Shown in pieces: positions 16,241 to 21,406 of a DNA stretch of 21,554 bases. The notes under the pieces are model-generated. The model saw only the letters and a program-made list of their open reading frames with translations, did no database searches and was not told the DNA's origin. The position numbers and the translations under genes are program-made. This DNA comes from a virus: positions 1 through 21,554 of IMG/VR virus record IMGVR_UViG_3300028595_000063; one strand, given 5' to 3'. How positions within the stretch are numbered: the stretch's first letter is position 1; every line of letters begins with the position of its first letter.

Positions 16241-17743
16241 TTATCTATAACCAAAGTTTTCATATTCTCTTTCATTTTGTTCCATTATTTTGTCTTGAGG
16301 ATCATGTCCTAAGACTTTCTCTGTTAATATTAATTGATAAGCTAGACTGTCCATAGTGTCATCGTACACACTTCTAGGAAAGTTATGTAACTCTTCTTCT
16401 AGGTCTTTGCATTCTCCTATAATGTGATATATCTGACCGTTAGAGTATCTAGGTATCAATTGTCTTATTCTTGTGTTCTTAGCCGTTCCGCCATGTTTAA
16501 GCTCTTCTATTGGGAGATATATGTTTCTACGCCTACATTCATCTTCTATGGCTATTTTTAGCCCCTCTGTGAATGCTGTCTTCTCTATTCCTATCTTCTC
16601 AAAGCTTCTCTTGCTATGCATGTCAAAGATATAGTTTATTAAGTCTCTTGAGTTGAGCTTGGTTCTATAACTCTTAATATTCCAGAAGTCATCTACATCA
16701 ATATAATTCTCTGTTATTCCTATAAAGTCACTCTTGTCATTAGGTCTCTCTCTTCCAGCTGTATCAATGGTCATAAACTTCCTTGTCTTCTTGTGTATCA
16801 CCTCTTCTAGTGTCCTATATTTAAACCATCCTTTATTAAATTCTCTCTCTTCATCAGTAATAGGAGTATTCATCATCTCTCTGTTATATGCTTGGTGTCC
16901 TAACAATCTCTTCTTGCTTTCTAGGCTTACTTTGTGTTTGTCCTTATTCTCTATGTCTTTGTTAAACTCCTTTGCTTCTTCATCTGTCTCTGTGTATTTG
17001 CTCTCCCATACTATTTTCCCTTTCTCTACCACTGGTATGTCATACACTCTATATCTTTCATCATCCTTAATCTTTTCCTCTAAGTAGTTAATGCTTCCGT
17101 TAAATGCTAGTCTGTTAGCTAAACATAATATAAAAGCATTGCCTGATAAACCTCCTAAGAGTTCGTCTATATAATCCTTTACCTGTTCTGTTTTAGCTTC
17201 TGATTCTATTGTTGTTAAACTTTCTATATCGTCTAGTATTATGAAGTCTGGTCTGTACTCTCCGTACACTTCTCCTCTGGGAGTCTGTCCTGTTGAATAT
17301 GCTTTAACTTTAATCTTATTTGTAGTGATAAACTCTCCTATGCTTTTCTTCTTACTCTGCTTATCAATATTATCTTCATAAAACAACTGTCCAAAGTCTT
17401 CTATGATCTTTTCGTTAGTCTGTAATTGTAATGCTATATCAAACAAGTTTCCTTCTGCCTTCTTCTTGTCATAGCTAGTCCAGATATTAAAGTGAGTCTT
17501 GCTATAAACTATGTTATGTATTAGCTTGATCTTTGCTATTGATGTCTTTGCTGATTCTCTGAATGTAATTAACAATAATCCCTTTAGCTCTTCATTACTT
17601 AAGTCTTTGTACCATTCCTTATGAAACTCTGGCATTGTGTATTTATGATATTGACTGAAGTAATAAAGGCTAAACAACATCAAAGACTTTTCACAAGCAT
17701 ATATTCTAGTGTCCTTTTTAGCTAGTACTTCTTTTATGTTCAT
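16241..17743 (-). CDS. terL: Terminase large subunit (DNA-packaging ATPase/nuclease)
   Basis: A 500-residue protein that pumps DNA into the procapsid and cuts concatemers. The N-terminal ATPase has a Walker-A-like LITFRESAKTSIAK with FRESAKTS at 61-68, in which Arg/Glu replace the usual Gly-rich turn, a variation known in TerL. Walker B is FIILDDIE at 167-174 (D171, D172 acidic), and CLANR at 207-211 is in the coupling-motif position. The C-terminal RuvC/RNase H-like nuclease shows D327 (FMTIDTAG), E387 (IGIEKTA) and DDTMD at 461-465. Its start overlaps the small terminase stop by 4 bases (ATGA), so the two are translationally coupled. Length is normal and the gene looks intact. Confidence 0.92.
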   Translation of the reverse strand: MNIKEVLAKKDTRIYACEKSLMLFSLYYFSQYHKYTMPEFHKEWYKDLSNEELKGLLLITFRESAKTSIAKIKLIHNIVYSKTHFNIWTSYDKKKAEGNLFDIALQLQTNEKIIEDFGQLFYEDNIDKQSKKKSIGEFITTNKIKVKAYSTGQTPRGEVYGEYRPDFIILDDIESLTTIESEAKTEQVKDYIDELLGGLSGNAFILCLANRLAFNGSINYLEEKIKDDERYRVYDIPVVEKGKIVWESKYTETDEEAKEFNKDIENKDKHKVSLESKKRLLGHQAYNREMMNTPITDEEREFNKGWFKYRTLEEVIHKKTRKFMTIDTAGRERPNDKSDFIGITENYIDVDDFWNIKSYRTKLNSRDLINYIFDMHSKRSFEKIGIEKTAFTEGLKIAIEDECRRRNIYLPIEELKHGGTAKNTRIRQLIPRYSNGQIYHIIGECKDLEEELHNFPRSVYDDTMDSLAYQLILTEKVLGHDPQDKIMEQNEREYENFGYR

Positions 17744-18135
17744 AGGTTATTTGAGTCTATTAATTCATCTACTTCTTGCTTCCTTTCATCTGTTAATGCT
17801 GATAACTCTTTATCATTGCTTGTTAAGTCATTCTCTACTCTAGTGCTAAATTCATGCTTTCTCTTTCTTTCTAGATACTTTAAACTAAATTCTGGATTGC
17901 CTGCTAGTCCCTTTACTACTTCTTGTCTTGCCTTTAGTATTGGTTTTTCTAGTAATCTCTTGCGTATTTCTGCAACCTCTGGTTTCTTTTGTAAAAATCT
18001 AGTAATTGAACTTTCGCTAACATTAGCATAATAAGAAGCCTCTGCATTTGTGCCTCCCATTGCCCAAACTTCTTGTAATTTAGCAAGGATTTCTTCCTCA
18101 CTTTTACCGTCCCATTGTATTCTTCCTGCTGGCAT
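17740..18135 (-). CDS. terS: Terminase small subunit
   Basis: A 131-residue protein. Residues about 13-60 form a helix-turn-helix (EEEILAKLQEVWAMGGTNAE, ASYYANVSESSITRFLQKKP) that would recognise the packaging site. Residues 60-110 have the usual terS tail LLEKPILKARQEVVKGLAGN followed by FSLKYLERKRKHEFS, a pattern typical of small terminases that oligomerise into a ring. The C-terminus is acidic. It directly precedes terL with an ATGA overlap. The gene starts 31 bases downstream of the tRNA-like sequence with the leader AAATATATGCC, so mom, the tRNA and the packaging genes probably share a transcript. Confidence 0.85.
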   Translation of the reverse strand: MPAGRIQWDGKSEEEILAKLQEVWAMGGTNAEASYYANVSESSITRFLQKKPEVAEIRKRLLEKPILKARQEVVKGLAGNPEFSLKYLERKRKHEFSTRVENDLTSNDKELSALTDERKQEVDELIDSNNL

Positions 18136-18165
18136 ATATTTATAATTTAATTGCTTATAAATTTG

Positions 18166-18238
18166 AGCGCCAAGGTCGGGTATGCTCCGCCTCTTTAGTT
18201 ATGGAATAACTATGTGCCACTAATTACACTATTGGCGC
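18166..18238 (-). tRNA. tRNA-Gly(UCC)-like gene with degenerate elbow
   Basis: A 73-nt cloverleaf on the minus strand. The acceptor stem is 7 perfect pairs (GCGCCAA with TTGGCGC). U8 and A9 follow, then a 4-bp D-stem (GTGT/GCAC) with the 8-nt loop AATTAGTG, and a perfect 5-bp anticodon stem (TAGTT/AACTA) with loop ATTCCAT, giving anticodon UCC with U33 and A37. The variable loop is AAGA. The T-stem is 5 bp (GGCGG) with a bulged A at 18176 and loop AGCATAC. The discriminator is U73 and CCA is not encoded. G1:C72, C2:G71, U73, C35 and C36 are the classical bacterial glycyl-tRNA synthetase identity elements. G18 is A, T54 is A, U55 is G and A58 is U, so the elbow contacts are lost. Its first 10 bases overlap the end of the mom-like gene, whose UAG stop is U8-A9-G10. 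Confidence 0.75.
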
Positions 18239-18810
18239 AATCTGTATATAAATAAATGTTTTTCTTCTATTGGGGCATAATCCCACTTATAAGGAACATT
18301 TGAAATCTTGCCCCACTTAGCTCTAACACTTCTTCCGTGAACCTTTTTGTTATTTATAATATAATAAGCATCCTTATTTGTGGTTCTCTCCCCTAAATAT
18401 TCCCAATTTCCTGCTTTGTAAATTGTTCCTTTATGTCCTTGATTGGTTTTATCAGCATAGCTAAAAACTAATTTAATACCAGGATTATGTTTTTTAATTA
18501 ATCTTAAAGTAATGGCTAAAATTTTTGTTGTTGGAGTTTTGTGTTTATTTAATGCTACTCTTACTAACTCACAACATTCTGTTTGTTTTAGTTTAAAGCT
18601 TTTAGCAGCATTATTATTTGCTCCTCTTCCATAAATAACAGTTCCTATAAATTTGTTGTTTTCCCATACACCATATTTCAATAATTTTCCAGAAGGCATA
18701 CTCTGAGAATAATGCCAATTCATAACTGCAAACTTAGAGGCCTCAAATGAGCAAAAATCAATTTTCAAATTCACATCCACATTCTGGACATTTGTTTTTT
18801 TTCTTTTCAT
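18229..18810 (-). CDS. mom: Mom-family adenine hypermodification (methylcarbamoylation) protein
   Basis: A 193-residue protein of the phage Mu Mom type (GNAT-like fold), which converts DNA adenine to N6-carbamoylmethyladenine and protects phage DNA from restriction. Motifs that fit the family are NWHYSQSMPSGK at 31-42, KYGVWENNKFIGTVIYGRGA at 45-64, CELVRVAL at 80-87, VFSYADKTNQGHKGTIYKAG at 115-134 followed by NWEYLG, and VHGRSV at 157-162. The start is uncertain. The ATG at 18810 overlaps the ParB-like gene by 53 bases, while GTG at 18774 or TTG at 18768 would leave the conserved core intact. The last codons are shared with the tRNA-Gly-like gene. The family call is by motif recognition. 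The exact product on this DNA is inferred. Confidence 0.82.
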   Translation of the reverse strand: MKRKKTNVQNVDVNLKIDFCSFEASKFAVMNWHYSQSMPSGKLLKYGVWENNKFIGTVIYGRGANNNAAKSFKLKQTECCELVRVALNKHKTPTTKILAITLRLIKKHNPGIKLVFSYADKTNQGHKGTIYKAGNWEYLGERTTNKDAYYIINNKKVHGRSVRAKWGKISNVPYKWDYAPIEEKHLFIYRLRQ

Positions 18811-19231
18811 CTAATCTTTCAAACCCACTTTCATCTGGTATAAAAGTTGGATCAATTAAATTAATATCAAATCCTGTTAGCTCTATCATTTCAGTATCTA
18901 ATCCCTTTAATTCTTCTATTACTAAGTCCATATCCCAATCACTCTCATTTAATTTATTGTCAGCTAATCTATAAGCCTTTATTTGCTTTTCTGATAAATT
19001 GTCTAGCTTAAGTACTGGTACTTCTTCTAGTCCTAATAATTTTGCTGCCTCATATCTTCCATGCCCTACTACTATTTCATTGTTTTTATCAATAACTATA
19101 GGCTGATTAAAGCCAAACTCCTTTATGCTATTAGCCACTTGCTCTATCTGCTTTTTAGGATGCTTCTTTTGATTCTTTTTGTAAGGCTTTATTTCCTCTA
19201 TCTTGATTGTCTCTCCTGTTACTGCTCCCAT
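18758..19231 (-). CDS. ParB-like (ParB/Srx fold) protein with C-terminal Cys motif
   Basis: A 157-residue protein. The N-terminal ParB domain has IEEIKPYKKNQKKHPKKQIE (about 11-30), VANSIKEFGFNQPIVID (32-48) and the nucleotide-binding box IVVGHGRYEAAKLLGL at about 53-68, followed by a small helical region with YRLADNKLNE. It ends in KCPECGCEFEN (147-157), half of a zinc ribbon. ParB-fold proteins bind CTP or ATP and DNA, and phage versions often accompany DNA modification or packaging genes. It overlaps the mom-like gene and lies 5 bases downstream of a small unknown gene, so it is probably translated with mom. Its role in modification is inferred. Confidence 0.85.
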   Translation of the reverse strand: MGAVTGETIKIEEIKPYKKNQKKHPKKQIEQVANSIKEFGFNQPIVIDKNNEIVVGHGRYEAAKLLGLEEVPVLKLDNLSEKQIKAYRLADNKLNESDWDMDLVIEELKGLDTEMIELTGFDINLIDPTFIPDESGFERLDEKKKNKCPECGCEFEN

Positions 19232-21013: not shown

Positions 21014-21406
21014 TTATTTGTTAAATATTATTATAGCACTTGGAAAAGGTGCTGAATTTTTAGCCCCACCAAATTTTAATCTTCCCTTGATAAATCTTAT
21101 CTCCTTTGCCTTCATTATGTATTCATGCCAATAAATTGTATCTGTTCTACTAGGTATTAACATCACAACAGTTTTGCCTTTTAAGTGTTCATTATAAGCT
21201 TTTTTGCACCAATTTTTTATATCTGAGTATGGTGGATTAACAAAGCTTGACTTTCCCCATTCTATTTCTAAACCATTAAAATCTGGATATTCATTTAATG
21301 GACAAGGATCAAAGTCAAAGTTAAATTCATTGTTTAGTTTATTGTATACATCGTTTGGTGTTTTCCAATTATCACTAGCACTGGAAAACATTACTTTCGT
21401 GTTCAT
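21014..21406 (-). CDS. dam: Phage Dam-type DNA adenine-N6 methyltransferase
   Basis: A 130-residue protein of the phage DNA N-6-adenine-methyltransferase (Dam, PF05869-type) family. It has DNWKTPNDVYNKLNNEFNFD (12-31), DPCP at 33-36, the catalytic NPPY at 57-60 (SFVNPPYS), VVMLIPSRTDT at 80-90, IRFIKGRLKFGG at 103-114 and FPSAIIIF near the end. These are the signature blocks of the family, which transfers a methyl group from S-adenosylmethionine to adenine N6. A classic FxGxG motif is not seen, as usual here. Its ATG overlaps the previous zinc-ribbon stop by 4 bases. The modification may protect phage DNA or set up regulation. Confidence 0.9.
   Translation of the reverse strand: MNTKVMFSSASDNWKTPNDVYNKLNNEFNFDFDPCPLNEYPDFNGLEIEWGKSSFVNPPYSDIKNWCKKAYNEHLKGKTVVMLIPSRTDTIYWHEYIMKAKEIRFIKGRLKFGGAKNSAPFPSAIIIFNK

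Follow-up and report, generated by a model that had tools for sequence, protein, structure and literature searches.

The window, by which we mean the whole 21,554-nucleotide stretch of viral DNA analysed here, carries on its minus strand a small tRNA-like RNA locus that adjoins a gene of the Mom family. The features referred to below are:

17740 to 18135, minus strand: terminase small subunit, the next gene downstream on the same strand and context outside the module (PHROG 4102, E 2.4e-5)
18166 to 18238, minus strand: Mom-linked tRNA-Gly(UCC)-like RNA (ARAGORN, covariance model, MFE fold, family covariation)
18229 to 18810, minus strand: mom-like DNA adenine modification gene, 193 aa (Pfam PF25680 Mom, 3.9e-40; PHROG 1384 Mom-like, 8.4e-46)
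18758 to 19231, minus strand: ParB_N-domain gene, 157 aa, with a C-terminal CPECG, overlapping the mom start (Pfam ParB_N, 2.6e-11)
21014 to 21406, minus strand: Dam-type DNA N6-adenine methyltransferase gene (PF05869, 8.8e-22)

The gene order is ParB-mom-RNA-terS, with the terminase subunits downstream, and the last 10 bases of mom are also the first 10 bases (5′ end) of the RNA. The presence of a Dam-type methyltransferase gene suggests that the phage may carry two adenine modifications. A CxxCG C-terminus was seen in 43 of 78 such ParB genes, and recalls the zinc protein Com, which overlaps and controls mom in Mu.

The RNA extends from its 5′ end at 18238 to the discriminator U73 at 18166, with the anticodon UCC at 18205-18203. 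It is the single tRNA identified by ARAGORN in the window, as tRNA-Gly(tcc) at 18165-18238 on the minus strand. Written 5′ to 3′, its acceptor stem is GCGCCAA/TTGGCGC, followed by U73; the D-arm is GTGT(AATTAGTG)GCAC, the anticodon arm TAGTT(ATTCCAT)AACTA, the variable region AAGA, and the T-arm GG-CGG(AGCATAC)CCG-A-CC. These segments fold into a cloverleaf with a 7-bp acceptor, an NCC anticodon and a complete GlyRS identity set (G1-C72, C2-G71, C35, C36, U73). The canonical elbow (G18 G19; T54 U55 C56 R57 A58) is absent, the corresponding bases being A18 G19 and A54 G55 C56 A57 U58; U33 is retained. The MFE structure is this cloverleaf, including the bulged A, at -23.7 kcal/mol (z -2.9), and 2 of 200 shuffles are as stable. 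A covariance model of the family, R1, scores the RNA at 72.9 bits (E 3.6e-14), the window being among the model's 23 seeds.

Many of these features had been described in an earlier note on this DNA. Base-by-base reading confirmed the D-loop AATTAGTG, with A18 and with G19 kept, and the T-loop AGCATAC, with A54, G55, C56 and U58. The bulged A that the note placed in the T-stem at 18176 is present both in the sequence and in the MFE cloverleaf, CCA is indeed unencoded (CAA follows U73), and each of the remaining base-level claims, such as A48 and perfect acceptor and anticodon stems, was found to be correct. A low tRNA score had been predicted as well, and was borne out: the Rfam tRNA model (RF00005) has no match in the window at its gathering score, and none in a 201-base local stretch up to E=10, while the isotype given by ARAGORN is Gly(tcc), as expected. 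The note had also remarked that bases 54 and 58 look swapped; this is real in the window copy and peculiar to it, whereas the bulged A and G55 are traits of the family.

The protein encoded by the overlapping gene scores 138 bits against PF25680, for which the curated cut-off is 27.1. Its AlphaFold2 model (pLDDT 91) matches 8bv8, the Mu Mom crystal structure, with Z 18.4 and rmsd 3.5 over 168 aligned residues, compared with Z about 13 for generic GNATs. After Mu Mom, the best-matching folds are those of GNATs that depend on CoA, and there are no folds of the Fem or L/F-transferase type among the structure matches listed. Alignment with Mu Mom shows that H33, Y34, R84, D120 and Y131 are conserved; these match H48, Y49, R101, D139 and Y149, which are reportedly essential in Mu Mom. 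The inactive S124A mutant of 8bv8 was left out of this comparison because the relation of its numbering to the alignment is uncertain. The CoA pyrophosphate motif (R/Q)xxGx(G/A), after strand 4 and before helix 3, is absent from the alignment, with RVALNKHKTPTTKILA in the window protein and RMWLHDDMPRNSESRA in that of Mu.

Mu Mom turns DNA adenine into alpha-N-(purin-6-yl)glycinamide, a glycine-derived base whose chemistry was reportedly described by Swinton et al. in 1983, and the question of what donates the group that Mom adds to DNA dates from the 1980s. In a 2021 review, an acyl-CoA such as glycyl-CoA is proposed as this donor (PMC7824862). Recognition of Gly-tRNA by GNAT folds is documented elsewhere, in that most of the GNAT toxins tested acetylate Gly-tRNAGly (PMC9177977).

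The association between the RNA and mom was counted from both directions. Mom relatives were collected from phage records, viral contigs and bacterial genomes with the protein as the only criterion, and were grouped into mom clusters at 85% identity (n=121). Reading the DNA of the first independent loci by eye showed a tRNA-Gly-like sequence after mom in most of them; phage Appa has such an RNA on the strand opposite to mom, and phiEf11 has no such sequence after mom. Wherever ARAGORN names an isotype at the mom 3′ end, that isotype is Gly. Used by itself the program undercounts, with only about 14 linked RNAs recognised as tRNA-Gly, and we therefore built a cloverleaf finder and a covariance model. 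With the finder, 69 of the 121 clusters proved to have a GC-acceptor match at the 3′ end of mom; CC is present in the anticodon loop of all 69, and 56 have a strict NCC in a 7-base loop, where the chance expectation for a tRNA-like match with a GC acceptor and NCC is 0.003 per locus. When the R1 model was added to the finder, the RNA was found to adjoin mom in 87 of 121 clusters, which is not a prevalence figure because the Mom set was partly drawn from RNA-bearing seeds.

In most loci the RNA overlaps the mom reading frame or sits within it. Embedded RNAs, whose production would cut the mom message, lie at the mom 3′ end in phages and ahead of the Mom domain in Chloroflexota. Examples of RNAs embedded in the mom frame are L013, L015, L043, L070 and L148-L150, and there are many others.

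From the RNA side, the T-arm pattern alone identified 120 viral contigs, with mom directly upstream on the same strand in 113. Four of the other seven are cut by contig ends (L241, L327, L332, L342), two (L297, L343) lack a convincing cloverleaf, and the last, L318, carries a strong RNA (89 bits) next to a different DNA-modifying GNAT. For the mini class, the pattern AGCAGGCGATG..ACAGCGGC gave 4 matches only, all by chance. Among 16 viral records that were searched whole, 15 have exactly one RNA match, located at mom. In about 600 bacterial genomes from two phyla, mom lies beside every examined match of at least 55.6 bits. Within the 301 genomes from the phylum of a Chloroflexi MAG, all examined matches at or above that score adjoin mom, and those of 52.8 bits or less are without mom and are ordinary tRNA-Gly where checked, a count that leaves out one match at 53.9 bits. 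Within the 297 genomes from the phylum of a Thermoanaerobaculia MAG, matches of at least 69 bits are mom-linked and one at 53.7 bits is unlinked. Between about 53 and 55 bits, linked and unlinked matches overlap. RNA and mom also occur together in bacterial chromosomal contigs of 1.4-2.1 Mb from the Chloroflexi-type phylum (L197-L200; genomes G070, G294, G051 and G038, contig C1).

Alignment of 95 linked RNAs (A6) provides evidence of a conserved structure. Standard pairs occupy 98.5% of the paired positions, and 517 double changes are spread over 18 of the 20 pairs, compared with 122 in shuffles; when the helices are slid by 1-3 bases, pairing falls below 42%. Since A6 was fitted to the model, the alignment of the 23 seeds is the cleaner test of covariation: it is 99.8% paired with 102 double changes, a number reached in 0 of 500 shuffles, and the choice of seeds by the cloverleaf finder biases the absolute pairing upward but not the co-variation of the helices with position beside mom. 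Judged by these comparisons of sequence, the window RNA is more than a chance resemblance, as 95 relatives share its structure with strong covariation.

The positions that are fixed and those that drift fall into different functional classes. All 95 linked RNAs have G1, C2 and CC at 35/36, 92 have U73, and 66 encode CCA. Among seven-base anticodon loops, 27 of 71 have U33 and 33 of 71 have A34. A TTCRA T-loop is seen in 31 of 90 RNAs, U55 in 39 of 90, and a reduced D-arm in 29 of 95. By comparison, a set of 17 ordinary tRNA-Gly, taken from genomes covered by these searches, shows U33, GG and TTCRA without exception (17 of 17) and never A34. The bulged A in the T-stem occurs in 84 of 95 linked RNAs, the short type and the upstream type of Chloroflexota among them, and three linked RNAs (L007, L011, L010) are near canonical. 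A short class of 64-68 nt (alignment A3; loci L008, L021, L024, L035, L044, L052 and similar) has a reduced D-arm (AAGCAGGCGATG) and an unchanged T-arm with the bulged A, and is missed by ARAGORN. The affinity of tRNAs for EF-Tu is set by the T-stem pairs 49-65 and 51-63 (PMC4052509), and the bulged A sits among these pairs, in the EF-Tu contact region. Identity bases that are fixed, together with decoding and elbow bases that drift, form the pattern expected of selection for charging and none for decoding. There is almost no doubt in our minds that the RNA is real, under selection and partnered with mom. The earlier note had proposed an RNA that can be charged with glycine, is poor for translation and is not a product of decay; the comparison of 95 relatives gives strong support to this suggestion, and adds the partner gene, mom, which the note had missed.

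A gene for ParB lies directly upstream of mom in 57 of the 73 RNA-bearing clusters with enough flank. In Chloroflexota the order is RNA-mom-ParB, with the RNA just ahead of the Mom domain and ParB directly downstream of mom; the Mom proteins there are only about 30% identical to that of the window and form a separate clade in the tree. The order flips and yet the linkage persists, and therefore the module consists of ParB, Mom and the RNA in either order. Mapped on the Mom tree, presence of the RNA requires about 13 changes over 152 proteins, far fewer than with shuffled labels. A large clade that includes the Mom proteins of ICP1, Listeria and Klebsiella phages is without the RNA. Complete Mom phages that lack the RNA at mom (Mu, phiEf11, ICP1, K64-1 and others) have no unlinked copy in a whole-record scan; its filters were stricter, and the weak RNAs known from Appa and Jeon escaped it as well. 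In Listeria phage LP-083-2 the scan gave one RNA match, far from mom. Another RNA-less group, from Yersinia, Serratia, Paenibacillus, Lysinibacillus and phiEf11 (L112, L114-L116, L103, L105, L113, L009), is nested among RNA-bearing kin, where the RNA was either lost or never present.

The GNAT beside the strong RNA that lacks a mom neighbour belongs to a second family, PF22559. In relatives of this locus (L349-L352), RNAs scoring 70 to 89 bits adjoin ParB and a PF22559 GNAT. Examples of RNAs in this family are:

L318, 12973 to 13045, minus strand: RNA of the second GNAT family, 89 bits
L366, 1559 to 1630: RNA of the second GNAT family, in a PF22559 GNAT context with ParB
L365, 1504 to 1574: RNA of the second GNAT family, in a PF22559 GNAT context with ParB

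The full form of the enzyme, a fusion of a Dam-like domain with the GNAT (PF22555 + PF22559), occurs in mycobacteriophage Jeon and Gordonia phage Clawz. The Jeon annotation includes a tRNA-Gly(tcc) that overlaps the beginning of the fusion gene, with ParB after it, and Clawz has a weak RNA copy (24 bits) in the same place. The distant viral relatives of this family that were examined (L353-L364) have no RNA.

From sequence, it appears quite likely that the RNA is a dedicated glycyl donor for Mom, which would make this an aminoacyl-tRNA-dependent DNA modification. Charging, avoidance of EF-Tu, transfer to DNA, rearrangement and the role of ParB are steps that we infer, as follows. The RNA would be co-transcribed with parB and mom, trimmed, and supplied with CCA, and host GlyRS would charge it with glycine by way of the retained acceptor end and C35/C36. 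Because of its altered elbow and the A bulged from its T-stem, the RNA would be kept from EF-Tu and the ribosome, and the Gly-tRNA would stay available to Mom. Mom, with its GNAT fold and without the usual CoA-binding motif, would then pass the glycine to phage DNA, at N6 of adenine. In the resulting N6-glycyl-adenine, the free glycyl amine could attack C6 in a Smiles-type rearrangement through a five-membered spiro intermediate; the product, purin-6-yl-NH-CH2-CONH2, would be unchanged in mass and is the known Mom base. ParB may guide Mom on DNA, or may regulate it.

The lack of the GNAT CoA motif in Mom, along with the GNAT toxins that act on Gly-tRNAGly, supports Gly-tRNA as the donor. Several observations weigh against it: the nearest non-Mom folds are CoA-dependent, and Mu and several other Mom phages are without the RNA and must use host Gly-tRNA if Gly-tRNA is the donor. 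In addition, the window RNA keeps U33 and has no encoded CCA, and there are the three near-canonical RNAs mentioned above. In a broader form, it is likely that GNATs of at least two families (Mom and the Dam-like/GNAT fusions), each with ParB, attach glycine from a neighbour-encoded, ribosome-avoiding tRNA-Gly to DNA adenine, and that rearrangement then gives the glycinamide base.

Different models can be proposed for an RNA in this position. The main rival, prompted by the overlap with the mom frame at most loci, is a cis-acting tRNA-like element in the mom transcript that tunes mom expression, with no glycine given to DNA. The element might be cleaved by RNase P, sense Gly-tRNA or GlyRS, or be bound by the ParB/zinc protein, and it has a precedent in the RNA-level control of Mu mom by Com (PMC6483171); the overlap of the mom start by parB also fits. 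However, the RNA occurs on the 3′ side, on the 5′ side and, in Appa, on the opposite strand, an arrangement that a cis element could hardly tolerate. Such an element also sits poorly with CCA encoded in 66 of 95 RNAs and with the retained glycine identity bases, and in the second GNAT family the RNA is found at the ParB end or ahead of the enzyme gene. We regard regulation in cis as unlikely.

Phages often carry tRNAs, and ARAGORN reads this one as tRNA-Gly, so it could in principle supplement translation of GGN codons and lie near mom by accident. The family counts given above for U33, A34, the reduced D-arm and the T-stem bulge (27/71, 33/71, 29/95 and 84/95) speak against this, as do the 17 of 17 host tRNA-Gly that keep U33, GG and TTCRA; furthermore, the isotype is always glycine and the location nearly always mom. 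A role in translation is very improbable. Equally improbable is a decoy or replacement tRNA that shields the phage from host effectors hitting Gly-tRNA, such as GNAT toxins: most of those tested do act on Gly-tRNAGly (PMC9177977), but this does not account for an RNA that pairs so strictly with mom in contigs of viruses and bacteria. Temperate phages use tRNA genes as attachment sites and the elbow looks degenerate, but the least credible reading is a decaying tRNA or attachment-site remnant from integration, given 517 compensatory double changes, 98.5% of pairs retained, and mom, ParB and terminase as neighbours with no integrase seen beside the RNA in the loci inspected. Covariation, neighbourhood and lost decoding bases are the grounds on which the decay, attachment-site and translation readings were set aside.

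A dedicated glycyl donor would have wider significance. The conserved, glycine-specific tRNA partner points to glycyl-tRNA as the Mom donor and makes the question directly testable. To our knowledge, no DNA modification is known to use a charged tRNA; if the proposal is true, this would be the first DNA base modification, as far as known, to draw on one, and would link the protein-synthesis machinery to phage evasion of restriction. A further outcome is a widespread class of tRNA-like RNAs, which standard annotation mostly misses. A search of the open-access literature, with subscription papers and preprints outside its range, found no report of the link between the RNA and mom. The system may offer a tool for placing glycine, and perhaps other amino acids, on DNA.

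Comparison with known systems highlights both precedents and differences. Phage Mu Mom (PF25680; 8bv8) shares its protein family and fold with the window Mom; unlike the window, Mu has no such RNA in its genome, and has the small zinc protein Com in place of a ParB-zinc protein. FemX/MurM, L/F-transferase and MprF use charged tRNA as an amino-acid donor outside translation, which is the role proposed here, with peptides, lipids and proteins as acceptors. We know of no aminoacyl-tRNA transferase that acts on DNA.

In Staphylococcus aureus, a non-proteinogenic tRNA-Gly works with FemXAB in a way that resembles the putative role of the window RNA: glycine identity is kept, translation features are weakened, and a non-ribosomal transferase is the recipient (PMC4052509). 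The earlier note had drawn attention to this likeness, which holds as an analogy only, since details of the T-stem and elbow differ and the partner is mom, not peptidoglycan synthesis; no Fem gene was found beside the window RNA, whose neighbours are ParB, Mom and terminase. The S. aureus tRNA-Gly is without GG18/19 and has weak A49-U65/A51-U63 pairs (PMC4052509), whereas the window family has strong G-C pairs at these positions and a bulged A. EF-Tu is avoided in S. aureus by weak T-stem pairs and loss of GG18/19, and here perhaps by the bulged A and altered elbow; the acceptor is peptidoglycan, via FemXAB, in the one case and would be DNA, via Mom, in the other.

The GNAT toxins TacT and AtaT2 resemble Mom, as proposed here, in having a GNAT fold that recognises Gly-tRNAGly (PMC9177977). 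They differ in acetylating the charged tRNA with acetyl-CoA, and have no dedicated tRNA and no DNA target. The Dam-like/GNAT fusions of Jeon and Clawz belong to a separate GNAT family joined to a Dam-like domain, not to Mom, and yet they share with the window module a GNAT-type putative DNA modifier, ParB and a tRNA-Gly-like RNA.
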